From Candidatus Eiseniibacteriota bacterium (lineage in GTDB: Bacteria; Eisenbacteria; RBG-16-71-46), in contig JADLGX010000557.1 in the NCBI GenBank assembly GCA_020849095.1, positions 1-34,533 on the forward strand: a stretch of DNA of 34,533 nucleotides, in the 5' to 3' direction. The notes below the pieces were generated by a model. The model saw only the letters and a program-made list of their open reading frames with translations, ran no database searches and was not told the DNA's origin. Shown in pieces: positions 2,095-24,099 of this stretch. A program made the translations under genes and the position numbers. How positions within the stretch are numbered: the stretch's first letter is position 1; each line of letters begins with the position of its first letter.

Positions 2095-4071
2095 TCAGTC
2101 GTGACATTCCTGGCAGGCGCGCGCCGGAGGGCGCGGGTCGCCGTTCTCGAACTTGTGGCAGGAGATGCACTCTTCACCGTTCTCACGATGCTGCTTGTGC
2201 GAGAACTCGCCGCGCGCGACACGCACGGTGCGTTCGTTCACGTCCCCATGGCAGCGGAAGCAGTCCTTGAACTTGTCCGGTCCCAGGTCGCGATGGTGGC
2301 ACGTGGTGCAGCCGTCGGGTCCGAACCGCACCACCTCGACCTCGGGACGCTCGGAGTGCTTCCGGTGGCACTTCTCGCAGTCCAGCTTGGCATCGCCCAG
2401 GTGCGGGCCGTGCGAGAAGCGCCGCCCGCCGAACGTGCCGGACTGCCGCTCGATTCCGGTGTGGCAGGACATGCACGGGCTGTTCGACACGCTCGCCCAC
2501 GGACGGGCGGCCGCCGGCAGCCCGCGTCCGGCGCGCGCCTCGTTGAGCTGCTGCCAGGCCTTGTCGAGCACGGCGTACGCGTAGGTCACGTTGTGGACAC
2601 CCTTGCCGCGGCTGACGAGCAGGAAGTTGTGGCGGGCGTCGTCCCACGCCTGCGGAGCCTCCACGCCCATGACGCCGGCGTTGGCCTCCATGAGCCGCTT
2701 CATGCCCTCGGTGCGCGCGTCCACGGCTTGCTTCCAGCCTTCGTAGATCCGCTTGTAGCCCGGGCCGTGGCACGACATGCAGGACACCACGCCGGCCTTC
2801 ACGGTGCGCGGCCCCTCGGGCCCGCCGACTCCCAGCGAAGCGGCCGCGACATCGCTGAACGCGGGGTCGTGGCAACCCTGGCAGCGCACGCCCGTCGCGT
2901 ACATCGTGCTGGGCATGTCGGGCACGCCGCGCGCGCCCTTGCCCGCGTAGAGCTGCTGCTGCGGGTTGTGGCCGGAGCCGTGGCAGGACTCGCAGGGGTT
3001 GACCGCGTGCGAGCCCGTGGACTGCGGCAGGTCGGGCATGAGGTCCTCGGCGTGCGGCATGCCCTTGCGCTGCTGGTGCTTTTCGAGGAAGCCCTCGCCA
3101 CCGCGCGGCGCCACGGAAGCCAGCGTCGTGTCTCCGTGCGCGCTCTTCACTTCCGCCGCGAGAACGGAGTCGGGAGGCGCCAGCCGGGGCACGATACCGT
3201 GCTCGATCGGCGAGTGGCAGTCCTGGCAGTCGATCTTGTGCTCGCTCACGTGCATGCGGTGCAGGAACAGCTTGTCGCCGAACTTCTCGAGCCGGTCGGG
3301 CTGGTTGTGGCAGCCCAGGCAGCGCTCGCGCGCGACGTCGCCCGTTCCGCGCACGATGCCCTCGTGGCAGGAGACGCAGTTCATGTCGCGCCGCGAGACT
3401 TCGCTGTGATCGAAGCTCGTGGCGTCGGCCAGCTGGACGCGCTGCGGCACTTCGTGACAGCCGCGGCACTCGCCCAGCCCCGCGTTGGGCTCCTGTCCCT
3501 TGAAGTGACAGAGCGCGCAGGTGGACGTGGTGACGGTGAGATGAATGCCCTGAACGATCTGCGAGTGGCACGACGTGCAGCGCAGCTTGAGCCCGCGACG
3601 GCTCTCGGTGAGGTGAGGGCGGTGGTCGAACGCCACGCCCTCGAACTCGACCCGTCCGTCGAGCAGGCGGCGCTCGTGGCAGCGCAGGCAGGCCGCGTCG
3701 TCCACCTCGGCCCACGGCTTGGTGCCGTAGGTCGCGGTGAAGTACTTGGCCACCATGGACAGCGCCTCGAACTTCTTGCGCACCTCGGCCGTCAGCCCGG
3801 GCGAGATGTGGCATTCCACGCAGGCGATCTTATTGTGCGCGGAGTTCTCCCAGGACTTGTAGTACGGCTTCATGATGTGACACGTGCCGCAGAACTGCGG
3901 CGTCGACGACACCTGCACGAACGCGAGCAGGCCCACGATCGCCATGCCGATCAGGATGGGCACGAACGAGCGCAGCGTCTGGAATCGCTGCAGCGCGGGG
4001 AACCGGCCGGCCAAGCCGGCCATCCCTCGCGCGAGCGGCGAGCCGGGACCGAATCCGGGAATACGCGGCAC
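2095..4071 (-). CDS. Membrane-anchored 18-CXXCH multiheme cytochrome c with NapC/NirT-like N-terminus
   Basis: GTG start. One N-terminal TM helix (FVPILIGMAIVGLLAFVQ) followed by CGTCHIMKPYYKSWENSAHNKIACVECHISPG, typical of NapC/NrfH. 18 CXXCH motifs counted. Confidence 0.9.
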   Translation of the reverse strand: MPRIPGFGPGSPLARGMAGLAGRFPALQRFQTLRSFVPILIGMAIVGLLAFVQVSSTPQFCGTCHIMKPYYKSWENSAHNKIACVECHISPGLTAEVRKKFEALSMVAKYFTATYGTKPWAEVDDAACLRCHERRLLDGRVEFEGVAFDHRPHLTESRRGLKLRCTSCHSQIVQGIHLTVTTSTCALCHFKGQEPNAGLGECRGCHEVPQRVQLADATSFDHSEVSRRDMNCVSCHEGIVRGTGDVARERCLGCHNQPDRLEKFGDKLFLHRMHVSEHKIDCQDCHSPIEHGIVPRLAPPDSVLAAEVKSAHGDTTLASVAPRGGEGFLEKHQQRKGMPHAEDLMPDLPQSTGSHAVNPCESCHGSGHNPQQQLYAGKGARGVPDMPSTMYATGVRCQGCHDPAFSDVAAASLGVGGPEGPRTVKAGVVSCMSCHGPGYKRIYEGWKQAVDARTEGMKRLMEANAGVMGVEAPQAWDDARHNFLLVSRGKGVHNVTYAYAVLDKAWQQLNEARAGRGLPAAARPWASVSNSPCMSCHTGIERQSGTFGGRRFSHGPHLGDAKLDCEKCHRKHSERPEVEVVRFGPDGCTTCHHRDLGPDKFKDCFRCHGDVNERTVRVARGEFSHKQHRENGEECISCHKFENGDPRPPARACQECHD

Positions 4072-5349
4072 CTACTTCACCGCCCGCGGACCGGCATCAC
4101 GGAAGCGGCGGATGATCCCGATCGTGACGATGACGTAGAACCAGAACACGAGCAGGAAGAGCTTCTCGACGGTGATGTTCTGCAGCTTGCTGCCGAGTTC
4201 CTCCTGGATCTCCTCACCCACCGAGCGCGCGCGCGTGGTGTAGCCGCTCATGGCTTCGGGGCTCACCGCGTGCGCGGCCGTCAGCGCCTCGAACAGGTAC
4301 GTGTGGGCTTCCTCGATGCGAGCCTTGTAGTCCTCGGTCTGGATCGGCACGGCGTCCGCCCGGGCCACGACCTTCTCGGCCTTCTCGATGGCCTCGGCGG
4401 CGGACTGGTAGTCGGCCAGCAGCGTGGCTCCGAGCACTTCGTCCTTGCTGCCCTTGTCGTGGCACTTCACGCAGCTCGACGCCAGCCGCGCGGTCTCGCT
4501 GGGCGCGATGCCGTGGTCGCCGTGGCAGGAGCTGCACTCGGCCATCTGCTCGGCGGCCATGGCGGCCGCGTGCGGGCCGGACTTGAAGTAGCGCCGCTCG
4601 GCGGTGTGGCAGCGGCCGCACACCTTGTTCACGTTGCCGATGTCGGAAGGCGCGGCGCCGTGCACGCCGTGGCAGCTGACGCACGTCGGGGCCTTGAGGT
4701 TGCCCTTGTCGAACAGCGACTTGGCGTGAACGCTGCCGAGGTACTCGTGGTACGTGTCCTTCATCTTGCGCTCGCGGACGAGCGTCGTGTCGCCGTGGCA
4801 GGTGCCGCAGGTGCGCGGGATGTTGGTGACGTACGTGCGGCTGGCCGGATCGTGGGCGCTGAGCACGTCGTGCGCGCCATGACAGTCCGAGCACACCGCG
4901 ACCTTGCCGTCGCCCTTGGCGAGCAGCTTGCCGTGCCCGCTCGTCTGGTACTGCGAGTACTGGTCCACGGGCAGGTCGTAGGGCTGCATGACCTTTTCGT
5001 CCGCGTGGCACGAGGCGCACATGGCCGGGTCCTGCGCGCGCGTGATCTTGCCCCGCCAGCCGTTGCCCTGGTGCGCGCCGGCCTCGTCTAGGCTCTGGTC
5101 GTTGCCGCCGTGGCAGGACGTGCAGTGCATGTCCTCGCCCGCGTGCCGGCTCTTCTCGAACGCGACGCGCTCGTCCGGATGGCACGAGCCGCAGCGCCCG
5201 GAAGCCTTGGTCACCTTGCCGTCACCGGTCTTGCGGGCAGCGGCGAACGCGCCGGAAGCCAGCAGGAACGCGAGCGGCAACAACAGGAGCGTCAGCGCGG
5301 TCGCGCGGCGCCAGAGGCCCATCCCCTTTTCCTTCGCGTGAGCGCTCAT
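4072..5349 (-). CDS. 9-CXXCH multiheme cytochrome c with C-terminal TM anchor
   Basis: Start MSAHAKEKG (ATG 5347-5349), signal peptide, 9 CXXCH, C-terminal helix LFLLVFWFYVIVTIGIIRRF. ATGA overlap with the upstream cytochrome b stop. Confidence 0.9.
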   Translation of the reverse strand: MSAHAKEKGMGLWRRATALTLLLLPLAFLLASGAFAAARKTGDGKVTKASGRCGSCHPDERVAFEKSRHAGEDMHCTSCHGGNDQSLDEAGAHQGNGWRGKITRAQDPAMCASCHADEKVMQPYDLPVDQYSQYQTSGHGKLLAKGDGKVAVCSDCHGAHDVLSAHDPASRTYVTNIPRTCGTCHGDTTLVRERKMKDTYHEYLGSVHAKSLFDKGNLKAPTCVSCHGVHGAAPSDIGNVNKVCGRCHTAERRYFKSGPHAAAMAAEQMAECSSCHGDHGIAPSETARLASSCVKCHDKGSKDEVLGATLLADYQSAAEAIEKAEKVVARADAVPIQTEDYKARIEEAHTYLFEALTAAHAVSPEAMSGYTTRARSVGEEIQEELGSKLQNITVEKLFLLVFWFYVIVTIGIIRRFRDAGPRAVK

Positions 5350-6479
5350 CGGCGATCCACGAACGCGCCCAGAACGGAGAGCACGAGCCAGAGTCCGAAG
5401 ACCGCGAGTCCCGCCATGCGCAGGCGCTTGTCGTCGAGGCGATTGCCCGCGGCGCGGACGATCGCGGGCAGGAACGGAAGCGTGAACGCGGTGCCCACCA
5501 GCGCGAGACCCGGAATCCACCGGGGCAGCGGCAACTGGAACAGCGCATAGGGCGCCAGCATGTACCAGGGCGGCAGCGTGCCCTTGGGCGTCCGGTACGG
5601 ATCGGCCGGGCCGTGGAACTGGAACGGCATCAGCGTGGAGAGCGTGACCAGCCCCGCGAACAGCAGCAGCGTGATGATGACGAGGTCGCTGGCGTGCCGG
5701 CGGAACGTGGTCAGCTTGGGCGCCACACCACCGACGCGGCTCAGCCCCACACGGCGCATGGTCGCGAAGGTCAGGTAGACGAACGCCAGGTACAGGACCG
5801 GGAGCACGATGATGTGCAGCACGTAGAAACGGTTGAGCACGTCCTCGCTCATGGTGCGGCCGCCGACCAGCGCCGAGAGCATCGGGCCGACGATCGGCAG
5901 CGCCCACACGATTTCGAGCCCGCGGACCGCCGACCAGTAGGACTGCTCGTCCCAGGGCAGCAGCAGCCCGGTGAAGTCGAGCTGGATCACCAGCCACGCG
6001 AGCGCCACCGCGGAGAACCACAGCAGCTCGCGCGGCGCCTGGTAGAGGCCGTCCCAGAACAGCCGGATCATCCTGACGAGTACGACCGCGACCAGCAGCC
6101 ACGAGCCCCACATGTGCACGTGGTGCACGAGCCAGCCGAGCATCACGTCACGAACGATCGAGCGCGTGCTGTCGTAGGCGCCGAGCGCGGTGGGCTGGTA
6201 GTAGAACGCCAGAAGGATGCCGCTGACGGCTTCGAGTGCGAACAGCAGCGCGGTCAGCAGGCCCAGGATGTGCGGCCAGCGCGCGTACGACTCGAGCGGC
6301 GTGGTGCGGATCTGCTCGAGGACGTCACGCAGCGGGCGCCTGGTGTCGACGGGCGTGTAAATGAGGCCGAAGTGCGTCAGGAACGAGAACAGCTCGGACA
6401 GGTTGATCCGGGCGTCGATCCAGTCCACGGCGCGGTCCCGGCGGGTACGGGCGGGTGTTTCACTCGCGAGCGTGCTCAT
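5346..6479 (-). CDS. Cytochrome b (b6/bc1-type, membrane quinol oxidation subunit)
   Basis: Start MSTLASETPARTRR. Multiple TM helices; WPHILGLLTALLFALEAVSGILLAFYYQPT, HHVHMWGSW, LLPWDEQSYWSA, RFYVLHIIVLPVLYL and GTLPPWYMLAPYALFQLP fit cytochrome b/b6 with subunit IV. Confidence 0.9.
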   Translation of the reverse strand: MSTLASETPARTRRDRAVDWIDARINLSELFSFLTHFGLIYTPVDTRRPLRDVLEQIRTTPLESYARWPHILGLLTALLFALEAVSGILLAFYYQPTALGAYDSTRSIVRDVMLGWLVHHVHMWGSWLLVAVVLVRMIRLFWDGLYQAPRELLWFSAVALAWLVIQLDFTGLLLPWDEQSYWSAVRGLEIVWALPIVGPMLSALVGGRTMSEDVLNRFYVLHIIVLPVLYLAFVYLTFATMRRVGLSRVGGVAPKLTTFRRHASDLVIITLLLFAGLVTLSTLMPFQFHGPADPYRTPKGTLPPWYMLAPYALFQLPLPRWIPGLALVGTAFTLPFLPAIVRAAGNRLDDKRLRMAGLAVFGLWLVLSVLGAFVDRR

Positions 6480-6949
6480 ACGCGGACGAAGACCTCCCCG
6501 GCTCGCGTGGATACTTCGTAGGTGGGCAGCGCGCGCGGAGGCGGACCCGAAACGACGTTGCCGTTCAGGTCGAAGCGCCCGTCGTGGCAGGGACAGATGA
6601 GCCCGCGGCGCTCGTGGTCGTACGCGAGGATGCAGCGGACGTGCGTGCAGACGGCGGACAGGGCGATCACGTGTTCGGCGCCGGTGCGGATGACGAAGAA
6701 GGGCGACACTCCGTGGCGGACCAGGCGGGCCTCGCCGATGCGGAGGTCTTCGAGCCGGCCGATGCGCACCACGCGCTCGTTGGAGGACTCGTTGTGCTCG
6801 GGCGCCCGCATGTAGGCTGCGATCGCGCCGGCGCCACCGAGAGCCCACAGGCTCAGGAAGGCGCCCGACAGCGTCTTGAGGAAGCCCCGGCGGTCCGTTC
6901 CACCTTCTGCGCCCGGCTGGTCATCCGAACGTCCTGCTCCGTCGGCCAT
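6476..6949 (-). CDS. Rieske [2Fe-2S] iron-sulfur protein with Tat-like signal
   Basis: RRGFLKTLSGAFLSLWALGGAGAIAAY N-terminal anchor; Rieske boxes CTHVRC and CPCHDGRFDLNGNVVSGPPPRALPTYEV. Overlaps the start of cytochrome b. Confidence 0.95.
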   Translation of the reverse strand: MADGAGRSDDQPGAEGGTDRRGFLKTLSGAFLSLWALGGAGAIAAYMRAPEHNESSNERVVRIGRLEDLRIGEARLVRHGVSPFFVIRTGAEHVIALSAVCTHVRCILAYDHERRGLICPCHDGRFDLNGNVVSGPPPRALPTYEVSTRAGEVFVRV

Positions 6950-6981
6950 GCGGCCTCCCCTTCGTGATCACTGCTTGCGAC

Positions 6982-7016
6982 GCGGCCAGCCCGGAGTCGA
7001 ACCCCGAACCGGCCGC
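6982..7016 (-). other. Intergenic GC-rich inverted repeat between the CbcL-like gene and the Rieske gene
   Basis: gcggcc (6982-6987) pairs with ggccgc (7011-7016); no T-tract on the minus strand. Confidence 0.45.
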
Positions 7017-7034
7017 ATCCTATTCCGATCGGGC

Positions 7035-9230
7035 CTATTCGTGAACTCCCGGCCCGCCCTCGCGCGCCCCGGGCTCGGCCGGCGCGGTCTCGTCCTTCGC
7101 CTCGGCCTTCAGCTCGGCCTTCAGCTCGGCCTCGAGGATGCGCTCGTACTCGATGATGTGCTCGTGCCGCATCTGTGCGTCCGAGATGCGCCCGGTGAGC
7201 CACGTCCAGTTCATGGGGTAGACGTCCGGGTTCACGATGTTCATGTAGAGGTGCCACACGACGATCGCGAGGAAGGCGAGCCATGCCTCGTAGTAGTGCA
7301 CCACCGTGGAGAGATCGATCATCCACTTGGGCAGCTCGCGCAGCGACGAGTTCTCGAACCACAGGATGAACCCGGTGAGCGTCATCACGACCGTGCCCCA
7401 GATGAGCGCCCAGTACTCGGCCTTCTCGATGTACCCGAAGCGGTCGAAGCGGGCCGGGGTGCGGCGCAGCCCCACCAGGTAGAGCATCTGCTGCACCAGG
7501 TCGAGCGCGTCCTTGGGCTGCGGGAACAGGTCCATGACCAGCTTGCGGCCGCGCGGGGTGAACAGGTAGGCGACGTGGAAGAGCGACACCGCAACCATCG
7601 CGACCGCCGCGATGCGGTGAACGAGCGCGCGCCACGAGTAGCCGCCCTCGAGCTGGGTCATCCAGTGGAACAGGATGTTCTCGGGGAACTTGAGCGCGAA
7701 GCCCGTGTAGACGAGCGTGAAGAAGCTCACCGCCAGCAGGAAGTGCTGGATGCGCTCGGCGACCGTCATGCGCTCGAACCACCGCGTGGCCGCATGCCCG
7801 TGCGAGGGCGCCTGCCCCAGGTGGGCGGAGAAGCTCGCGCCGATCTTGCGAACGAAGTCGAGCCCCTGGTGCAGCGCCATGAACCCGATCGTGCCGGCGA
7901 TGAGGAACAGGTAGACGATGCGCGTCCAGTAGGGGACCGGCTGGCTTTCCGTGGCCATCGTGACGTGCACGGCGCTGATCTTGAACTTGGTGCCGGCGCC
8001 CGGATGGCACTTGCCGCAGGTCTCTCCCACGCGCTGAGGGGAGACCAGCGAGGCGGGATCAGTGGACGGCAGGATGTCGTGATAGCCGTGGCAGCTGGCG
8101 CAGTTCGCGACCACCGGTGATCCGCCGCGCGCGGCAAGTCCGTGGAAGCTGTCGCGATAGCTGGACAACCGGCCGGCGGGCAGGCCGAACGTCTCGCGGA
8201 TACCGGTCGCCTCGTGGCAGCGCGAGCAGGTCTCGCTCACGTTGGCTGCGGCGACGGGCGAGCCGTTGGCGTGCGGCCCGCGGATCATGTGCTCGCCGTG
8301 GCAGTCCGTGCAGACGGGCGTCGCCGTGACGCCGCGGACCAGCGCCTGGCCGTGAACGCCCTTGGCGTAGCGGGCGGCCTCCTTGCGGTGGCACTTGCCG
8401 CAGGTGGCGGGGATGTTGCCGCGGTAGATGGACGACGTGGGATCGTTGGCGCGCTTGAGGTCGTGCGACTCGTGACAGTCGTTGCAGCGCGCGGCGCCTT
8501 CCTTCTTGGAACGGCCGTGCGCGCTGTTGCGGAACAGCTGCACGGCTTCGGGAATCGTGATCTTGCGCTTGGCCATCAGCTGCCGGTCGGCGTGGCACTT
8601 GGCGCAGGTCTCGGTGATCCGGAAGGGCCCCGTCATGGACTCGGGGTCGTCCTTGGATCGCACGCCGTGCGGGTGGCCATGGCAGTCGCGGCACGTGGAG
8701 GCGTCGGCGTCGCCGTGCAGGCGCGCCAGCCCGTGCACGCTGGTCGCGTAGTCCTTGGATGCCTTCTCGTGGCATCGCTCGCACAGCGCGCGCCCCTTGG
8801 CGGCGACCTTGTGCACTCCGCCGTGGCAGGCACGGCAGGCCGCGTCGACGCTCGCCCCCTTGCCTCCCACCCGGCGATGCGCGCCGACCGACAGCGAGTC
8901 GGCCGTGCCCTTGTGGCAGCCGACGCAGTCGACCGCGGGCAACTGGGTCGGGTGGCGCAGCGTGGTGCCCTTGTGGCACTCGATGCAGGCCAGCTTGCCG
9001 TGGCCCGTGTGCGCCAGCGCGGCGGCGTCCACGGTGAGCGAGCCCGACCGGCCCATGTCGCGGGCCAGCGAGCTGTTCTTGTGGCACATCAGGCAGTCCG
9101 CGTCGCTCGGGCCGGCAGCAGCGGCGGCCGTGAGCGGCGCCAGCGTCAACATGAGGACCTGTATCACCGACATGGCGGCCTGGCGCATGCGACGCGCCGA
9201 GCCGCCCGGAGCTTCCGTGCGATCCGCCAT
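7035..9230 (-). CDS. Fused multiheme cytochrome c (13 CXXCH) plus C-terminal HydC/FdnI-type cytochrome b (CbcL-like quinone oxidoreductase)
   Basis: Start MADRTEAPGG with signal peptide. 13 CXXCH, then membrane domain VAERIQHFLLAVSFFTLVYTGFALKFPENILFHWMTQ...WRALVHRIAAVAMVAVSLFHVAYLF...YYEAWLAFLAIVVWHLYMNIVNPDVYPMNWTWLTG. Confidence 0.9.
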   Translation of the reverse strand: MADRTEAPGGSARRMRQAAMSVIQVLMLTLAPLTAAAAAGPSDADCLMCHKNSSLARDMGRSGSLTVDAAALAHTGHGKLACIECHKGTTLRHPTQLPAVDCVGCHKGTADSLSVGAHRRVGGKGASVDAACRACHGGVHKVAAKGRALCERCHEKASKDYATSVHGLARLHGDADASTCRDCHGHPHGVRSKDDPESMTGPFRITETCAKCHADRQLMAKRKITIPEAVQLFRNSAHGRSKKEGAARCNDCHESHDLKRANDPTSSIYRGNIPATCGKCHRKEAARYAKGVHGQALVRGVTATPVCTDCHGEHMIRGPHANGSPVAAANVSETCSRCHEATGIRETFGLPAGRLSSYRDSFHGLAARGGSPVVANCASCHGYHDILPSTDPASLVSPQRVGETCGKCHPGAGTKFKISAVHVTMATESQPVPYWTRIVYLFLIAGTIGFMALHQGLDFVRKIGASFSAHLGQAPSHGHAATRWFERMTVAERIQHFLLAVSFFTLVYTGFALKFPENILFHWMTQLEGGYSWRALVHRIAAVAMVAVSLFHVAYLFTPRGRKLVMDLFPQPKDALDLVQQMLYLVGLRRTPARFDRFGYIEKAEYWALIWGTVVMTLTGFILWFENSSLRELPKWMIDLSTVVHYYEAWLAFLAIVVWHLYMNIVNPDVYPMNWTWLTGRISDAQMRHEHIIEYERILEAELKAELKAEAKDETAPAEPGAREGGPGVHE

Positions 9231-9276
9231 CCCGCTACCCCTCTCCCTCATCTCGTCCGCCCGGCGGGCCGACGCT

Positions 9277-9300
9277 GCGCGGGAGCCCCTGCTCCCGCGC
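9277..9300 (-). other. Perfect hairpin between the 42-heme gene and the CbcL-like gene
   Basis: gcgcgggagc (9277-9286) / gctcccgcgc (9291-9300), loop ccct; no T-tract follows on the minus strand. Confidence 0.6.
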
Positions 9301-9368
9301 ACCACTTACTTCTTCGAACTTCTCTCCCGGCGCCCACGGACTTCGAGGCGGCGGTGTTGCTGTCGCGT

Positions 9369-12300: not shown

Positions 12301-12614
12301 AGGCTCTGCGAGAAGCCGTGGCTGCGATGGCACGACGCGCAGTCGTTCTTCTTGAGCGGTGCGTGCAGGAACTTCTTCTTCTTGAACGCCGTGCGCGACG
12401 CCCCATGGCAGTCGTAGCACTCACGCGCCGGTCCCGAGCCGCGGCGAACGGTGGCCGCCGGCGCGGGTCGCGCCGCGGAGGCCGGCGGCGTGGCGGGAGT
12501 GACGGACGTCGTGGCCGTGGCGGGGGCCGGGGGCGCCGACAGCGCGAGTCGCGCCGCCGGCAGGCCGAGCGCGAGGACCGCCACCGCGCTCCACAGGAGA
12601 TTCCGGGATTTCAC
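9369..12614 (-). CDS. Giant secreted multiheme cytochrome c with 42 CXXCH motifs (1081 aa)
   Basis: GTG start, signal peptide MKSRNLLWSAVAVLALGLPAARLALSA. 42 CXXCH counted by hand, mostly in HxPxxxGxCxxCHxPHGS...LCxxCH units about 26 aa per heme. Confidence 0.93.
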   Translation of the reverse strand: MKSRNLLWSAVAVLALGLPAARLALSAPPAPATATTSVTPATPPASAARPAPAATVRRGSGPARECYDCHGASRTAFKKKKFLHAPLKKNDCASCHRSHGFSQSLVLQKAANQICLDCHGDMLKGTAAAHQHPAFKRGDCLGCHDPHASDRPHLVRDTTPVGSCFTCHSGSLAESKMAHQHEPFLKGNCSSCHEAHQSPNEGMVKAKGDALCTPCHALARVEGKHAKSPRRGLECLDCHSPHASSKPALGREAAHDPVASGDCESCHVMEAGKPTAKMVATGAKLCIECHDDMSGLGERAHPHDPAAEGNCLECHDAHRGSTSGKLLKSRPAQMCGSCHDELAAQLKMPVVHRAFSEGNCASCHDAHGSANPALARTADGAMCLSCHKTVEHDLADPKGVHPPAAKRDCLKCHSPHASTRKALLRQEEKPLCVSCHRDAVKALEEKTAHAPFNSGSCTACHKPHSSTLPKLALADNASTCLGCHTELQRELAREHVHGPAKSGKCISCHGPHGGIGKGLLTKPEGELCGGCHLPIARKVAGAGAHTVAARGDCQACHEPHGSKLNNLLRAPAAELCAKCHADVGHQGDNVHPPVADRECMSCHDPHGGPAAPALARTVPGLCIECHETDTKSMRGAHKEANVATANCLSCHSAHASKSAGLLQSHAHPGFGDKNCTKCHGPGVPSVTNLNAPAAQLCIKCHSVNKPRTAGEKVHQPVAKGACKSCHSPHGSDQAKLLIDAPDRLCVSCHPAVAKVAQLAHGHAPVAKGECGVCHEPHRGTGVGMLKKTPVQLCAGCHQDVSKRIAEGNAHAPAARGQCLTCHASHGSERPGMTRRAGAALCTSCHDSKKLAAVAGHAGMEIATTNCSSCHDPHAQPKGQRGLLLPGKHIPFVRGECTACHTSKGSAKLKKTGADLCISCHPKGGWAGRKSTHAPVTSAKQCLSCHGPHGGAGPSSLRAVGDGLCFECHEKKKFEGAVVHSAMKRGCVACHDPHGSDGPKLGKANTIADGCRKCHADTSKHFHKPTSDKPGPDGLPLTCTSCHSPHAAPFAGLLRNDPKRDLCVQCHDANMAPGEGGGHGPK

Positions 12615-13132
12615 CGCGCTCCCCCTTCACGCTGCCGGATCTTGATCGCGAGCGAGTCCTGGCTTTCGATGAGCGGCCGGTTGAGGAACTCGATCCGGGT
12701 CGCGACGAACGCGAGCTGCGACTTGGCGCTGAAGTGGGGCGGCATGTTGAAGAACGCCCACGACGTGTCGTGGGCGGCGCCCGCCTTGCTGACGACGATC
12801 TGGAACCCGGGGTTGTTGGGCTCGCCGCTCATGGACACGACCTTGCGGTTCTTGATGTCCATGGAGAAATCCGGCTCGAACCGGATGAGCCGGGCCGTGT
12901 ACTCGGTGTCGCCGACGCGGAAGGACTTGTTCGGGACGGCCACGACCTTGTCGTGAAAGTTGGGAAACACGCGGCTGAAGATGTGCAGCGTGACGTTCTT
13001 GAGCTTGGCAGGGCCCTTGCCCGCAGCCGCGGGAGCGGAAGTGCGAGGGGCGGTGGTGCCCGGCGTGGCCGCGTGACCGAGTGCGCTGGCGAGAAGCAGC
13101 AGCGCGGCGAAGAGGACGATGGATTTCCTCAT
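12611..13132 (-). CDS. Secreted protein of unknown function in the cytochrome cluster
   Basis: Signal peptide MRKSIVLFAALLLLASALGHA; SD GGAAGACC directly before ATG; 4-bp overlap with the 42-heme gene. No family recognised. Confidence 0.85.
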   Translation of the reverse strand: MRKSIVLFAALLLLASALGHAATPGTTAPRTSAPAAAGKGPAKLKNVTLHIFSRVFPNFHDKVVAVPNKSFRVGDTEYTARLIRFEPDFSMDIKNRKVVSMSGEPNNPGFQIVVSKAGAAHDTSWAFFNMPPHFSAKSQLAFVATRIEFLNRPLIESQDSLAIKIRQREGGAR

Positions 13133-13743: not shown

Positions 13744-14342
13744 AGGATCTTCGCCCGCAGCAGCGTCACCGCGCTCTGGCAGGCCTCCTGGGTGACGCGG
13801 GAAAACGTGCGCTCGCCCGATCCGCCGATGATCGGCAGCCGGCCCTTGCCCGAGTGCTGGATGGACAGGCGCCAGATCACGATGCCGGTCTGAACGTCGA
13901 GCATCTCGCAGTCGAACGCCACGACCGGGAACTCGTCCGTGCCCGCGCGGCGGATGGCGTACTCCGACACGCTGCCGCGGATGACGGCCGTGGCCTGGAG
14001 CTTGGCGGCCGCGTCGCGCAGTTTGTTCACGTCGAACTGGCCGGTCGCGTCGGGCGTGACATTGGCCTGCTCGAGCTCGCCGAGCAGCAGCGAGGGGTCC
14101 ACGATCTGGAAGCGGTCCACCATGATCAGTTCGGTGGTGAGCGCCCGGACCACGCGGCCGACGGCGTAGGGCTCCCCGCTCAGGTTGACGAACGGCACGA
14201 TCACGACGCGCTTGTACATCGTCATGTCCGCATCACGGTTGACGAACAACCGCGGGCCCGGCGCGCAGCCGGCCATCAGTGCGGTCAGGGCGACCGCGAC
14301 GAACAGGCGCGAGACCAGGTGCGACGCCGAGGGCACTTTCAT
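13740..14342 (-). CDS. Outer-membrane lipoprotein, CsgG/LpoB-like fold (putative), second copy
   Basis: Lipobox ALTALMAGC; YKRVVIVPFVNLSGEPYAVGRVVRALTTELIMVDRFQIVDPSLL...ATAVIRGSVSEYAI; overlaps both neighbours by 4 bp. Confidence 0.8.
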   Translation of the reverse strand: MKVPSASHLVSRLFVAVALTALMAGCAPGPRLFVNRDADMTMYKRVVIVPFVNLSGEPYAVGRVVRALTTELIMVDRFQIVDPSLLLGELEQANVTPDATGQFDVNKLRDAAAKLQATAVIRGSVSEYAIRRAGTDEFPVVAFDCEMLDVQTGIVIWRLSIQHSGKGRLPIIGGSGERTFSRVTQEACQSAVTLLRAKIL

Positions 14343-16060
14343 CGTCCGAAGCTCCAGGCAAGGGTCAGGTCGAGCCGGCGGGACTCCAGCTCATGACCGG
14401 GATCGTTATACGACAGGGCTGCATTGGCGGCAAAACGGCGGTTCGGCTCGAACTGCAGGCGGGTCGTGTACACCTCACGGCTCGACAACCGGCCGGCGAT
14501 GCTGACCACCTCCCGCTGATCGCTACGGGTCCAGCTTCCGTACCACTGCCAGCGCCGGGCGGGTTCGTAGCGCGCGGTCACGGTTCGGGTGGTGGAGCGG
14601 CCGGACGAGCTGGGGGCCGCGTCGTTCCAGCCGTACTGCCCCACGAGCTGAAGCGTGCGCACGGGGCGCCAGTTGACGTCCAGGGTGAGTCCGCGCGCGA
14701 CGGAAAGAGGGCGCAGCAGACCGGGGCCGTTGCGAAGGCTGCGAAGCGAGAGCATCAGCTGCAGCGCGCGCAGCGGAGTGCCCTGCACGCGCGCGGACCA
14801 GGCGCTGGAATAGCGCGAGCTGGCGGCGCTGGAGTCTGTATTCGCGGTCACCTGCAGGTTGGCGTCCGCCTGCAGCCGGGGGTTGAGGACGCCCCGGGTC
14901 GAGCCCGACATGGACTCGACGTGGTACGCGGCCTTGCCGGGATCCCAGTTGGTCGTGTGGGAAACATTGGACGACAGCGTCCACTTGCGCCGGATCGGCG
15001 CGTCGATGGTGGCGAGCGCCATCGCGTAGCGCTGGACGCCATCCGAGAGCGAGACGCCGCCGGCGCCCTCCCGCACGGTGCGATATCCCAGCCCCGACAG
15101 CACGTGGGAGCGCCGAGTGAAGAGATAGCGACCCATCAGCGTTCCTTCGTGGTCCGTCAACGAGGGCAGGTTCCGGTTGCCCGAGTCCACACGCCGCCAC
15201 TGCACGCTCGAGGTGCCGAGCCACTGGGTGCCGCCTCGCCAGTCGCCGTTGAGCGAGGCCGACTGGCTGAACTGGGCCGGTCGGCGCGCTCCACCGGTCG
15301 AACTGAGCACGTCGCTGGCGTCGTACTGGCCGTTGAACGACAGGTTCGGGCGGGCGGCATAGCGATAGGTGCCGCCGGCGGCGAGCACGGTCTGGACGTT
15401 CGTCTGCGACCCGGGCGTGCCCGAGAGGATGCGCTGCTGGTTCACCGTGCCATAGGTGGAGTAGCGATCGCGGTCGAACGTCACTCGCGCGCTTCGCGTC
15501 TGGTTGCGGTCGCCGAGCGACCCCGCGCCGTCGCGCCGGCGGCTGATCCACGCCAGGTCCACACGCGGCAGGTTCGGGAACGAGAAGTGGCCCGCGACCA
15601 TGGACTCCTTGTTGTGGGTCGTCACCGTGCGCGTGGTCACCGAGTCCGGATTGAGTCCGCTCTGCGACGACAGCGAGGCGCGCGTCAGCGCCGGCTGGTG
15701 CGACGCCATCACCTGGATGTAGGGATGAACCAGCCGCATCACACCCGCCGGAGTGCGGGCGAGATCATCGCGATCGAGGTACGAGCGCTCGGAGAAGCGC
15801 ACGTTCGACTCGAGCATCAGGTTCTGCCGCAGGTAGCTCTGCTGGTGCAGGTCGATCGAGCGCAGCCACAGTTCCTGGGACACACTCACCTTGCGCGAGT
15901 TGCCGCCGCCGGTCAGCAGCAAGGAGGTCTCGTCGAGCTTCTGGTACTGCGTGGTGAACGAGCCGTAGATCCCCTCGGCGCCCACGGGAGCGGCGCACAG
16001 CAGCGCGCCGAGCGCCGCTGCCGCCAGTCCCAGAGACCGATGCCGGGGTTCATCGCGCAT
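14339..16060 (-). CDS. Outer-membrane beta-barrel-like protein (putative conduit/porin partner)
   Basis: Start MRDEPRHRSLG with signal peptide AALGALLCAAPVGAEG. Alternating amphipathic strands rich in aromatic/Ser/Thr/Arg with short turns throughout; ends LTLAWSFGR. No CXXCH. Overlaps the upstream gene by 11 bp. Confidence 0.75.
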   Translation of the reverse strand: MRDEPRHRSLGLAAAALGALLCAAPVGAEGIYGSFTTQYQKLDETSLLLTGGGNSRKVSVSQELWLRSIDLHQQSYLRQNLMLESNVRFSERSYLDRDDLARTPAGVMRLVHPYIQVMASHQPALTRASLSSQSGLNPDSVTTRTVTTHNKESMVAGHFSFPNLPRVDLAWISRRRDGAGSLGDRNQTRSARVTFDRDRYSTYGTVNQQRILSGTPGSQTNVQTVLAAGGTYRYAARPNLSFNGQYDASDVLSSTGGARRPAQFSQSASLNGDWRGGTQWLGTSSVQWRRVDSGNRNLPSLTDHEGTLMGRYLFTRRSHVLSGLGYRTVREGAGGVSLSDGVQRYAMALATIDAPIRRKWTLSSNVSHTTNWDPGKAAYHVESMSGSTRGVLNPRLQADANLQVTANTDSSAASSRYSSAWSARVQGTPLRALQLMLSLRSLRNGPGLLRPLSVARGLTLDVNWRPVRTLQLVGQYGWNDAAPSSSGRSTTRTVTARYEPARRWQWYGSWTRSDQREVVSIAGRLSSREVYTTRLQFEPNRRFAANAALSYNDPGHELESRRLDLTLAWSFGR

Positions 16061-17507
16061 AGTTGACGGTGTACGACTCGCTTCCGTGGCAGGACGCGGT
16101 GCAGGTACCACCCGAAGCCGTGCGCGTGTAGGTGATCAGGCCGGGCGAACGCCCGAGCACGAGCAGGTTGGGCTGCGTGGTCGAGCCGTGCGTCACGTGG
16201 CACGCGTAGCAGGGAACCCGCTCCTCACCCACGTGCTCCGCATGCCCCATTTCGGAGTTGGGCGCGTTGAACCGCGACGCCGCGCGCGTGGTGGAGGGCG
16301 ATGAAGGATTCGCGTACACGTCGTAGTCGTGGCAGGCGAAGCAGAGTTCGTCGGAGCTCATCGTGCGCTCGCTGGCGGACGCGGGCGAAGGGCGGCGGAG
16401 CAGCCCCGCATTCGTCGAGCCGTGCGGACCGGCGACACCGCCGAAGTCGGAACCGTGGCAGGATCCGCAGCGCGTGATCGACGTGGCGCTCCAGCCGGGC
16501 GTGAACGCCATCGGCGAGATGTTCAGGTTCCGGCCGATGTCCTCGACGGGGTGATACGAGGGATTCGCCGGGTTGAGTACGAGCCCCATGTCGGTCTGCC
16601 CCGAGGGCTGCGTCGTCCACGACGAATGGCACTTGAAACAGAGCTGGTACTCGGCGTTCGGCGAAGACAGCGAGTCCGACGCGCCGAAGAGCGTGTACAG
16701 CGGGCGGGATCCCGCCCCGCCGTTGGAGACGGCGACTCGGCTCACGCCGAGCACGAGGCGGGACGCCTCGGTGGTGCCCTCGACCGACGAGCGGTCGGCC
16801 CGGGAGACGTGGGGATTGTGGCAGTCCTCGCATTCGGCGTGACGCTGGTTCACCGGCGTGACCCCGAACTCGGAGGGAAGCTGCTCGTCGGCGCCGGTGT
16901 GCCGGCCCGCGATCGTCAGTGTCGGGTGCCGATAGGGCTTGCTGAACTCGGCGGCGATGTTGGCGCTCGCGGGGCTGCCGTCGTGGCAAGCCAGGCAGAG
17001 TTGCTCCTCGCGCCGCAGCGCGAGCCGGGGCACGACACCCTGCGCGTCGGTGACACCGTGAGGGTCGTGGCAGTTGACGCACTTCGTGGCGGCGTCGGGC
17101 TCGAGGCGCATGGGCGGCACCGGACCGGGCCACACCATCGAGGTGCTGGAGCCGTGCCCTGTGCCCAGGTAGAGCTTTTCGACCGCGAAGCTGCCCTGCG
17201 TCCAGGGGCGATCATGGCACTCGATGCAGAGCGAGTTGTCGTTGGGGCCCTTGAGCGCGTTCGGAAAAACCGTGACCTGACCGGTGCCGTGCATCGAGTG
17301 GCAGCGGTCGCAGTCACCGTCGTGCAGTCCGGTGGCGAGGCTCAGGCGGATGCTGTCGGCATCGCGCGGAGTGCGCAGCGCGGGAGGCCCGGCCGAGAGC
17401 GCCAGCAGGGACGACAGCAGGAGCATCGCGAGGCGCAGGCCGGAGTGCTGGTGCCATGCGCGGGGCGATGTGGACGCGTGGCCTGGATGGCGAGGCGACT
17501 CGTGCAC
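16050..17507 (-). CDS. Secreted multiheme cytochrome c (9 CXXCH + 1 CX3CH)
   Basis: GTG start with SD AAAAGGGGAGCACC. CXXCH: CDRCH, CIECH, CVNCH, CLACH, CEDCH, CFKCH, CGSCH, CFACH, CYACH; terminal CTASCH. Confidence 0.9.
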   Translation of the reverse strand: MHESPRHPGHASTSPRAWHQHSGLRLAMLLLSSLLALSAGPPALRTPRDADSIRLSLATGLHDGDCDRCHSMHGTGQVTVFPNALKGPNDNSLCIECHDRPWTQGSFAVEKLYLGTGHGSSTSMVWPGPVPPMRLEPDAATKCVNCHDPHGVTDAQGVVPRLALRREEQLCLACHDGSPASANIAAEFSKPYRHPTLTIAGRHTGADEQLPSEFGVTPVNQRHAECEDCHNPHVSRADRSSVEGTTEASRLVLGVSRVAVSNGGAGSRPLYTLFGASDSLSSPNAEYQLCFKCHSSWTTQPSGQTDMGLVLNPANPSYHPVEDIGRNLNISPMAFTPGWSATSITRCGSCHGSDFGGVAGPHGSTNAGLLRRPSPASASERTMSSDELCFACHDYDVYANPSSPSTTRAASRFNAPNSEMGHAEHVGEERVPCYACHVTHGSTTQPNLLVLGRSPGLITYTRTASGGTCTASCHGSESYTVNYAR

Positions 17508-17626: not shown

Positions 17627-18619
17627 TCAGGCGCCCTGACGGTGGCACTGACGGCAGAGCGACCGCATGTTGCCGCCGTCGCCTTCTTCCGTACGCGCAC
17701 CGGCACCGTCCATGAAGATGAGGCCGAAGGCGTTCTTGTTGCCATGGCCCTTGTGGCAGCTCATGCAGGACGGCGTCAGGGTGTTGTCCGTACCCGTGCC
17801 GATCCACAGACCCTGCGAGTCCATCACCTTGACCTTGTTCGTCACGAGCGTGTAGTTGGCCGTCGTGCTCATGTTGACGTCGGCGACCGGGTGACGCGTC
17901 CAATCGACCGTGCCGCCGCCCATGTTGGCGTCGCCAGCCTGGCCGTGGAAGTCGGTGTGGCAGTTCTGGCACCAGCGGCCGTACTTGCTGTTGCGGATGT
18001 CCGGCTCGTTGAAGTCGACATCGGCTTCCGTGTACGCGGCAGCGGAGTGCTCGAAGATGTCCTTGGTGAGGTCGTTCGTTCCGACCGCGTAGGTCAGCGT
18101 GTCGCCGGTGAAGATGCCGCGGCGGCTCAGGTTACGGTACGTCGGGCCGCCATGGACCATATGGCAGCTGCCGCACCACAGACCGTGCGTGGCGTCCGGC
18201 ACGTACGCGCTGGTGGCGCCGCCTGGGGGCATCGCCATCGAGAACAGCGTGTGGCCGTTGATTTCGTCATAGCCGGCGTCGTTCGAGAAGCCATGGCCGG
18301 CCGCGGCGTTCAGGCCGCCCGCCTGGCGAAGACCAGCGGTTCCACCGTTGGCGCCGAAGACGTCCGGAGCGAACGAGGAGCCGTTGTGGCACGACAGGCA
18401 GAGCGAGACTTCGTCGTTGCGGAGCAGGGAGGCGTACGGGCCGGCCGTGCCCATCGGGGTGAAGACGCCGCTGGTCGAATAGCCGTGCTGCTGGCTGTAG
18501 TGAGCGACGTGGCAATCGGAGCAGATCAGCGACGTGCTGGTATGGAAGTCACCAGCGGTGGCCAGCGCGGCAGCCCCGACCATCATGAGGCCGGTCAGAA
18601 GAAGGGTAATGCGCTTCAT
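17627..18619 (-). CDS. Secreted hexaheme cytochrome c, OmcS-like
   Basis: SD GGAG before ATG; signal peptide MKRITLLLTGLMMVGAAALATA then FH near the mature N-terminus. Six CXXCH: CSDCHVAH, CLSCHNG, CGSCHMVHG, CQNCHTDFH, CMSCHKGH, CRQCH at the very C-terminus. Confidence 0.9.
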   Translation of the reverse strand: MKRITLLLTGLMMVGAAALATAGDFHTSTSLICSDCHVAHYSQQHGYSTSGVFTPMGTAGPYASLLRNDEVSLCLSCHNGSSFAPDVFGANGGTAGLRQAGGLNAAAGHGFSNDAGYDEINGHTLFSMAMPPGGATSAYVPDATHGLWCGSCHMVHGGPTYRNLSRRGIFTGDTLTYAVGTNDLTKDIFEHSAAAYTEADVDFNEPDIRNSKYGRWCQNCHTDFHGQAGDANMGGGTVDWTRHPVADVNMSTTANYTLVTNKVKVMDSQGLWIGTGTDNTLTPSCMSCHKGHGNKNAFGLIFMDGAGARTEEGDGGNMRSLCRQCHRQGA

Positions 18620-18728: not shown

Positions 18729-19751
18729 TCAGCGAACCCACATCAACCGCAGCAGCTTGCTGCCGGTTTCGACAGTGGCGAACATGCCCTTGCCGTCACT
18801 GGCCAACGCGCTGGGGTACAGCATCGCCCCGGATCCCTCCCCACCACCCAGAATGCCCAGTAACTGCCCCGTGGAATCGAAGACCTGCACGTTGTGGCGA
18901 ATCAGGTCGGAGACCCAGTAGCGGGAGTCCGGCGTGATCACGATGCCGCTGGGCGCGGAGAACCTTCCCGGCCCCTGATCGTGCACTCCGAAGCCGCGGA
19001 GGTACTTGCCCCCGGCGTCGAACACCTGGACGCCGAGTTCGGTGAGAACGCAGGTCACCGCGACCTCACCATTGGGCGCCACCGCGAGACCCGCGATCGC
19101 GCTCAGCTTGCCGGGCTCCTTGCCCGCTTCGCCCCACGAGGACAGCCAGCGGCCCTCGGGCGAGAAAACGTGTACACGGCCCATGCGGCCGCGCGATGCC
19201 ACCAGAATGCGTCCATCGGGCGCGATGGCGATCGCGCCCGGTCCGCCGCCGCCTTCGAGAGCGGAGTCCGGCGCTGGCAGCGTGATGTGTTCCAAGGTGC
19301 GGCCGCGGTAGTCGCAGACGTCCACGTAGGAGGCGAAGGCATCCACCACGAGGATCCGGCCCGCGGCGTCCACGGCCACGTGCTTGGGAAGGCCGTCGCG
19401 GACGGCGCCGTCTGAGCCGACGACGCGGTGCACGAAGAAGCCCTGCGGCTGGCCGTCGCGAGAGAAGAACTCGACGCGGTTCATGCCGGTGTTGGCCACG
19501 ACGATCTCGCCGGAGCGGATGTCGAAGGCCACACCCAGGGGCTGCTCGAACGTGCGCCCACCGTTCGCCTCGCCGCGGGTGTACATGGAGTCCACCTGGG
19601 GCTCGATCGCGCCTTCGGCGTTGGCCGCGGCGAACGGGGAAATGCCGCCGAGGAAGACCACCGCGAGGAAGCTGGCCACAGCCACCGTGCGCGTCACCAT
19701 CCCGCTCGCCCGGGCGGGCGATTCGGCGGCGAAGGCGAAGGGCTGGTTCAT
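18729..19751 (-). CDS. NHL-repeat beta-propeller protein, secreted
   Basis: NHL-type repeats: FEQPLGVAFDIRSGEIVVANTGMNRVEFFSRDG, LPKHVAVDAAGRILVVDAFASYVDVCDYRG, GAIAIAPDGRILVASRGRMGRVHVFSPEG, IAGLAVAPNGEVAVTCVLTELGVQVFDAGG, APSGIVITPDSRYWVSDLIRHNVQVFDSTG. The start may alternatively be 19700 (MVTRTVAVASF). Confidence 0.88.
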   Translation of the reverse strand: MNQPFAFAAESPARASGMVTRTVAVASFLAVVFLGGISPFAAANAEGAIEPQVDSMYTRGEANGGRTFEQPLGVAFDIRSGEIVVANTGMNRVEFFSRDGQPQGFFVHRVVGSDGAVRDGLPKHVAVDAAGRILVVDAFASYVDVCDYRGRTLEHITLPAPDSALEGGGGPGAIAIAPDGRILVASRGRMGRVHVFSPEGRWLSSWGEAGKEPGKLSAIAGLAVAPNGEVAVTCVLTELGVQVFDAGGKYLRGFGVHDQGPGRFSAPSGIVITPDSRYWVSDLIRHNVQVFDSTGQLLGILGGGEGSGAMLYPSALASDGKGMFATVETGSKLLRLMWVR

Positions 19752-20037
19752 GGCGGCGATCCCCAAGGAGCAGGCTTTCAGAGAGGGCTTCGTGTTCTCT
19801 GGTACCGCGCAAAGGCCCGCGGTCCTGTCCCATACCCATATCAATGCTTGTGCCACGATTCACAAGGTCGGCCGGTTCGAGAAGTGAGGCTTCATCCCGT
19901 TGGAGCACAAATGGTTGTAACGTCACGTTTCTGGAGTGGCTTTCCCCCGCCGGCAAGGGGTCTCTCGCTGGACTGCCAGCGCGTCAGGAACATACGTAGA
20001 ACTACTGACAGCTTGACCGTTGCGTGTACGGCCTGAC

Positions 20038-21693: not shown

Positions 21694-24099
<2,406 letters not shown>

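Follow-up and report, generated by a model that had tools for sequence, protein, structure and literature searches.

The gene at 17627–18619 of the window (the whole stretch of 34,533 nt that was analysed, which is one whole contig of a Candidatus Eiseniibacteriota bacterium) encodes a secreted hexaheme c-type cytochrome that, as judged from sequence profiles and a structural model, is near certainly homologous to OmcS. On balance we favour a reading in which this compact, divergent OmcS-superfamily member serves as the subunit from which an extracellular cytochrome filament is built, and this uncultured bacterium probably makes OmcS-like wires.

The reading frame (Table 1) starts with ATG and has a coding-like GC3 of 0.87. 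Six CXXCH motifs are found at residues 33, 74, 149, 217, 285 and 322, against an expectation of about 0.02 on the basis of composition. The local motifs are CSDCHVAH, CLSCH, CGSCHMVHG, WCQNCHTDFH followed by TRHP, and CMSCHKGH, and the sixth haem lies 4 residues before the C-terminus. Cleavage of the signal peptide appears to fall between ATA and GDFH, which leaves a mature protein of about 308 residues versus 407 in OmcS. The preliminary description had given this reading frame and motif order, a mature protein about 100 aa shorter than OmcS and a second histidine in the first motif. All of this was borne out by the coordinates, motif positions, local sequences and lengths; the histidine is His40, which aligns to H16 of OmcS. 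Relatives of the hexaheme were found in 12 of the 39 genomes searched. The aligned homologues, from genomes of the same genus, family or class, show 49–73% identity and all have six haems. A search of the bacterium's own genome revealed no second member of the family.

Table 1. Positions in the window of the hexaheme gene, its haem motifs and the genes of the surrounding operon.
Feature	Position	Strand	Remarks
OmcS-like hexaheme c-type cytochrome, proposed filament subunit	17627..18619	-	330 aa with signal peptide
Haem motif 1 CSDCH	18509..18523	-	followed by His40 at 18500-18502, OmcS His16 equivalent
Haem motif 2 CLSCH	18386..18400	-	
Haem motif 3 CGSCH	18161..18175	-	then His156 as presumed distal ligand (CHMVHG)
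Haem motif 4 CQNCH	17957..17971	-	presumed distal ligand His243 (RHP) downstream
Haem motif 5 CMSCH	17753..17767	-	then His292 as presumed distal ligand (CHKGH)
Haem motif 6 CRQCH	17642..17656	-	four residues from C-terminus
NHL-repeat beta-propeller protein	18729..19856	-	directly upstream; homologues adjoin OmcS-type hexahemes in Geobacter and other phyla
9-haem cytochrome (nonaheme)	16050..17507	-	directly downstream; only first haem segment OmcS-like
Outer-membrane beta-barrel porin, MtrB-like	14339..16111	-	start codon uncertain; from AF2 model, fold match and hhalign
LpoB-like lipoprotein, 200 aa	13740..14342	-	
LpoB-like lipoprotein, 204 aa	13129..13743	-	
173-aa protein, signal peptide, no family match	12611..13132	-	occupies the PPIase place of the Geobacter cluster
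42-haem cytochrome, 1081 aa	9369..12614	-	counterpart of the 26-/16-haem cytochromes of the Geobacter OmcS cluster
13-CXXCH protein fused to cytochrome b561/formate-dehydrogenase-gamma-like membrane domain	7035..9305	-	
Rieske iron-sulfur protein	6476..6949	-	
Cytochrome b (b6/petB type)	5346..6848	-	N-terminal part of ORF overlaps Rieske gene
9-haem cytochrome	4072..5265	-	C-terminal part of ORF 4072-6111; start uncertain
18-haem cytochrome, NapC/NirT-type N-terminus	2095..4071	-	

A single-sequence phmmer search of the PDB with the hexaheme did not retrieve OmcS. With a profile built on 45 homologues that span many phyla, OmcS was the top PDB chain (E = 1.5e-14) and outranked all other multiheme cytochromes in the PDB, the next chain scoring 18.6 bits. 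Since multihaem proteins share motifs and composition, we used shuffles as a control, in which the residues of OmcS (a reference sequence that matches PDB 6ef8 over all 407 residues) were permuted only between fixed positions, while all CXXCH motifs and all histidines were held. In about 1000–2000 shuffles the maximum was 48.8 bits for the 45-sequence profile, versus 57.3 bits for OmcS, and 66.7 bits for a broader profile of 51 sequences, versus 98.2 bits for OmcS. With its motif letters masked, OmcS reached only 0.4 and 13.4 bits with the two profiles, which shows that the score comes mostly from the motif letters.

Profile-profile alignment of the window family with 26 OmcS-family proteins extended over 281 columns. 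As a control, the nonaheme from the same operon was aligned with the OmcS family, which gave 39 columns only, and a PDB search with the nonaheme retrieved no OmcS; on these two grounds the nonaheme itself was rejected as an OmcS homologue. The E-values of hhalign are inflated for multihaem proteins (6e-12 over 39 columns for the nonaheme control), and we therefore relied on aligned length and on specificity within the PDB. When the hexaheme profile was applied to nine whole Geobacterales genomes, the best two matches, both close relatives, came from a Geobacteraceae MAG (G039), and OmcS-clade genes made up most of the other strong ones. An AF2 model of the hexaheme without haem (pLDDT 80.7, pTM 0.77) had OmcS as the sole significant match in a fold search of the PDB (E = 5.5e-4, prob 0.98), with a TM score of only 0.41. 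Identity to OmcS is 27% over 269 aligned positions.

If the hexaheme were an ordinary periplasmic or secreted multihaem cytochrome, its resemblance to OmcS would be convergence driven by CXXCH. The failure of the single-sequence search and the low scores of motif-masked OmcS speak for such convergence, but the shuffles that keep motifs and histidines argue against it, as do the nonaheme control, the result of the fold search and the synteny described below, and we find it hardly credible. The preliminary description had named alignment with OmcS as the check on its reading: similarity beyond CXXCH was found in the profile search, the shuffles, the 281-column alignment, the fold search, the pattern of 12 histidines and the gene neighbourhood.

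Of the 12 His ligands in the OmcS structure, 11 belong to the chain that binds the haem, and the neighbouring chain supplies the remaining one, on haem 505 (PMC6584659). Six of them lie in the haem motifs. H2, H16, H110, H147, H257 and H335 are presumed to be the six distal ligands on the basis of their conservation, and together with the motif histidines they add up to the count of that structure (PMC6584659). The equivalents in the window protein are H26, H40, H123, H156, H243 and H292, so that all 12 presumed axial histidines of OmcS are retained. At the six distal positions, His is present in 73–74 of the 74 members of the window's clade, that is, in every member having the position; His40 is conserved in 73 of 73 and never lost there. 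Among 13 Geobacter OmcS-clade proteins examined, H2, H110, H147, H257 and H335 were kept in all 13 and H16 in 8. His16, reportedly the inter-subunit ligand of OmcS in the 2019 structure work, is the only presumed ligand whose equivalent is missing from any Geobacter paralogue examined. This is as expected if those paralogues do not polymerise, and loss of the His16 equivalent is a possible sequence marker of non-polymerising paralogues.

Hexahemes without the His16 equivalent (L158:3214-4524, L159:2488-3876, L159:4070-5410, L162:4574-5911, L161:1895-3136, L099 and L136) are near or related to Geobacterales OmcS clusters; they keep all other presumed axial histidines, and one has 7 CXXCH motifs. 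Further variation was seen at haem 3 of the OmcS-like proteins of L093, L095 and L097, where CAGTNGCHG, CAGTYGCHG or CAGALGCHG (C-x5-CH) stands in place of CXXCH; the haem there may be lost or bound at an unusual site. OmcS-like N-terminal regions also occur in ORFs of 751, 1755 and 656 aa (L080:5481-7733, L084:1368-6632 and L085:7995-9962), which have 12–14 CXXCH and are possible fusions.

In a tree of 124 proteins (quick search, root drawn at midpoint) the Geobacter OmcS/T/J-type proteins formed one group (support 99, branch length 1.27) and the window protein fell into a separate group of 74 proteins (support 95) dominated by Planctomycetota, Eisenbacteria, Armatimonadota and Zixibacteria. 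By its position in this tree, the window protein is a member of a separate clade across many, mostly uncultured phyla and is not an OmcS orthologue. The OmcS-type subunit of the preliminary description is thus well supported as far as homology goes, in view of profile, shuffles, fold, 12 histidines and synteny, but only partly as a whole, since the protein is no orthologue and its polymerisation is a proposal. The MAG G039 carries both an OmcS relative (50% identity) and a window-type member, which means that the two types coexist.

Polymerisation of the hexaheme is only likely, because several Geobacter paralogues of OmcS have no demonstrated filament (PMC12977616). The protein could also be an OmcS-like hexaheme of the outer surface that does not polymerise and serves the porin conduit as an entry or exit cytochrome, either as a monomer or in short oligomers; the Geobacter paralogues OmcT, OmcJ or GSU2501, which are functionally uncharacterised, would be comparable. 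Its place outside the OmcS clade and the absence of much of the OmcS shell (about 100 aa) agree with this, as does the fact that among four G. sulfurreducens relatives only OmcS is known to form a wire (PMC12977616). The complete retention of His40 in its clade argues against it, since some Geobacter paralogues have lost exactly that histidine and no other. We regard a non-polymerising hexaheme as doubtful, though to be taken seriously.

The hexaheme gene is part of an operon with the order NHL propeller, hexaheme, nonaheme, porin, two LpoB-like lipoproteins, 173-aa protein, 42-haem cytochrome, 13-haem/b561 fusion, Rieske protein, cytochrome b, 9-haem cytochrome and 18-haem NapC-type cytochrome. 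From the nonaheme through the 42-haem gene the ends overlap. The AF2 model of the porin is all-beta (pLDDT 86.5) and has MtrB (6r2q_B) as its top PDB fold match (E = 2.3e-12). The 42-haem cytochrome has about one haem per 26 residues. Two consecutive inner-membrane electron-transfer modules occupy 2095-9305 on the minus strand, namely the 13-CXXCH/b561 fusion, whose architecture we presume to be CbcL-like, and the group of Rieske protein, cytochrome b, 9-haem and 18-haem NapC-type cytochromes. The cytochrome b is weakly ExtP-like, and the overlap of its ORF with the Rieske gene means that its true start is further in. A membrane pyrophosphatase (H+/Na+-translocating type) adjoins the operon on the opposite strand (21694-24099, +). 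The gene at 31858-34434 (-) encodes a protein of 858 aa, possibly a further exported cytochrome, in which six CXXCH are combined with Ig-like domains and a C-terminal tail of FlgD/Por-secretion-like type.

The Geobacter cluster has the order OmcS-type hexahemes, propeller, porin, two LpoB-like proteins, PPIase, 26-haem cytochrome, 15/16-haem cytochrome, NHL propeller and hexaheme. Propeller, porin, two LpoB-like lipoproteins and a giant multihaem cytochrome beside a hexaheme are thus common to both, in order. Against a database of about 70 ORFs, which makes the values optimistic, phmmer gave E of about 1e-16 to 1e-21 for the LpoB-like proteins and 1e-7 to 1e-11 for the NHL proteins versus their Geobacter counterparts; the porins were aligned by hhalign over 204 columns (prob 94.8). 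The PPIase of the Geobacter cluster, a 590-aa protein with rotamase domains, was not found among the scanned proteins of the window operon, and no counterpart of the 173-aa protein was found in the Geobacter clusters. Among 73 related loci, many of them on contigs that end early, the NHL gene is directly upstream of the hexaheme gene in 39. Porin and LpoB occur together in 27 of the 73 loci, and in 21 of the 47 loci of at least 12 kb.

According to PMC12977616, which cites Shen et al. 2025, the eight-gene block GSU2500-GSU2493 has recently been tied to OmcS maturation and secretion. We equated the Geobacterales loci with this block by gene content and order, and by the same features the window neighbourhood matches the Geobacter OmcS maturation/secretion cluster, a match that is new here. 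Family identity suggests that the window operon additionally has quinol-oxidising inner-membrane modules.

The nonaheme has five residues in its first haem segment (H62, C66, C69, H70 and H73) that are invariant in 11 homologues, and this segment resembles the N-terminal His donor of OmcS over 39 columns. The nonaheme is a candidate for the filament base or cap. His40 may instead serve a fixed hetero-complex of hexaheme and adjacent nonaheme, in which one protein gives an axial histidine to a haem of the other; the pair would then act as a short extracellular relay at the porin rather than as a homopolymer. Such a complex would fit with the invariant segment and with the 9-haem gene that almost always follows the hexaheme gene in Eisenbacteria loci. 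Many homologues in other phyla, however, have no 9-haem neighbour and yet conserve His40 throughout, and the alignment over 39 columns may reflect a shared CXXCH-type motif alone, so that we consider the hetero-complex quite improbable.

For the filament that we favour, electrons would be taken from quinol via the Rieske/cytochrome b and 13-haem/b561 modules. They would then pass along the giant 42-haem cytochrome and through the MtrB-like porin with lipoproteins and nonaheme, and end in a linear chain of stacked bis-His haems of the hexaheme subunits. The hexaheme would be exported through the conserved conduit and stack head to tail, with His40 of each subunit donated to haem 5 of its neighbour. 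Homology to OmcS, the retained 12 presumed axial histidines and the synteny with the Geobacter OmcS cluster are observed; polymerisation, export to the outside (hinted at by the signal peptide and the neighbouring porin), which way the electrons flow and what each partner does are inferred. In the alignment, the approximately 100 residues absent relative to OmcS fall between the conserved histidines, and their loss would make the layer of protein that surrounds the haem chain thinner. In its widest form the proposal would be that compact subunits form nanowires in a separate lineage across many, mostly uncultured phyla, that the Eisenbacteria nonaheme is the base or cap by which the terminal subunit, with its open haem, is joined to the MtrB-like porin, and that one operon encodes the whole wire from quinol to filament; we think it rather unlikely that all of this holds.

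OmcS homologues were already reported to be widespread (PMC10954620), as also stated in the passages of PMC12954529 that cite Baquero 2023, and sulfate reducers are known to carry OmcS-like genes next to porin conduits (PMC10553843). Eisenbacteria are listed among taxa with iron-cycling genes (PMC8478452). No description of the window's clade or operon was found in a search of open-licence literature. If the hexaheme polymerises, OmcS-type wires would extend to uncultured phyla, among them Eisenbacteria, Zixibacteria, Latescibacterota and Planctomycetota, and would be part of an old, widely shared conduit that is not specific to Geobacterales. Homology methods do not reliably tell wire-forming from other OmcS-like proteins (PMC12977616). 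The anchoring of OmcS filaments is still called speculative (PMC12307469), and their physiological role has been disputed (PMC6771412). His40, strictly kept in the clade and lost in some Geobacter paralogues, may provide a sequence test for which OmcS-like proteins can form wires, and the nonaheme is a testable candidate for filament anchoring.

Among known systems, the OmcE filament (PDB 7TFS) also has a linear haem chain with one inter-subunit histidine (PMC12954529), but it has four haems and matches the window hexaheme only at chance level (profile E = 0.24, fold E = 2.8). The MtrCAB complex (PDB 6R2Q) provides, with MtrB, the best PDB fold match of the window porin, and the hexaheme model had no significant fold match to it (E = 5.9). 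The OmcS-like cytochromes that syntrophic sulfate reducers encode next to their OetABI conduit (PMC10553843), compared by description, resemble the window in combining a hexaheme with an outer-membrane porin and multihaem cytochromes, while the window also has inner-membrane quinol modules. OmcT, OmcJ and the GSU2501-type hexahemes of Geobacter belong to the same superfamily and cluster as OmcS; they lie inside the OmcS clade, unlike the window protein, and are not orthologous to it. Some hexahemes of Geobacterales clusters are without the His16 equivalent, whereas the window protein keeps that histidine. The closest likeness is to OmcS of G. sulfurreducens (GSU2504; PDB 6EF8/6NEF), which has six haems in the same order and all 12 presumed axial histidines. 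In both proteins an N-terminal F/Y-H precedes haem 1 by eight residues, haem 4 is followed by RHP and the last haem is at the C-terminus, and both stand beside a propeller, a porin, two LpoB-like lipoproteins and a giant cytochrome. They differ in that the window protein is about 27% identical to OmcS, about 100 aa shorter, placed in a separate clade and only a putative filament subunit; the window operon has the nonaheme and the 173-aa protein where the Geobacter OmcS cluster has a second propeller and the PPIase.
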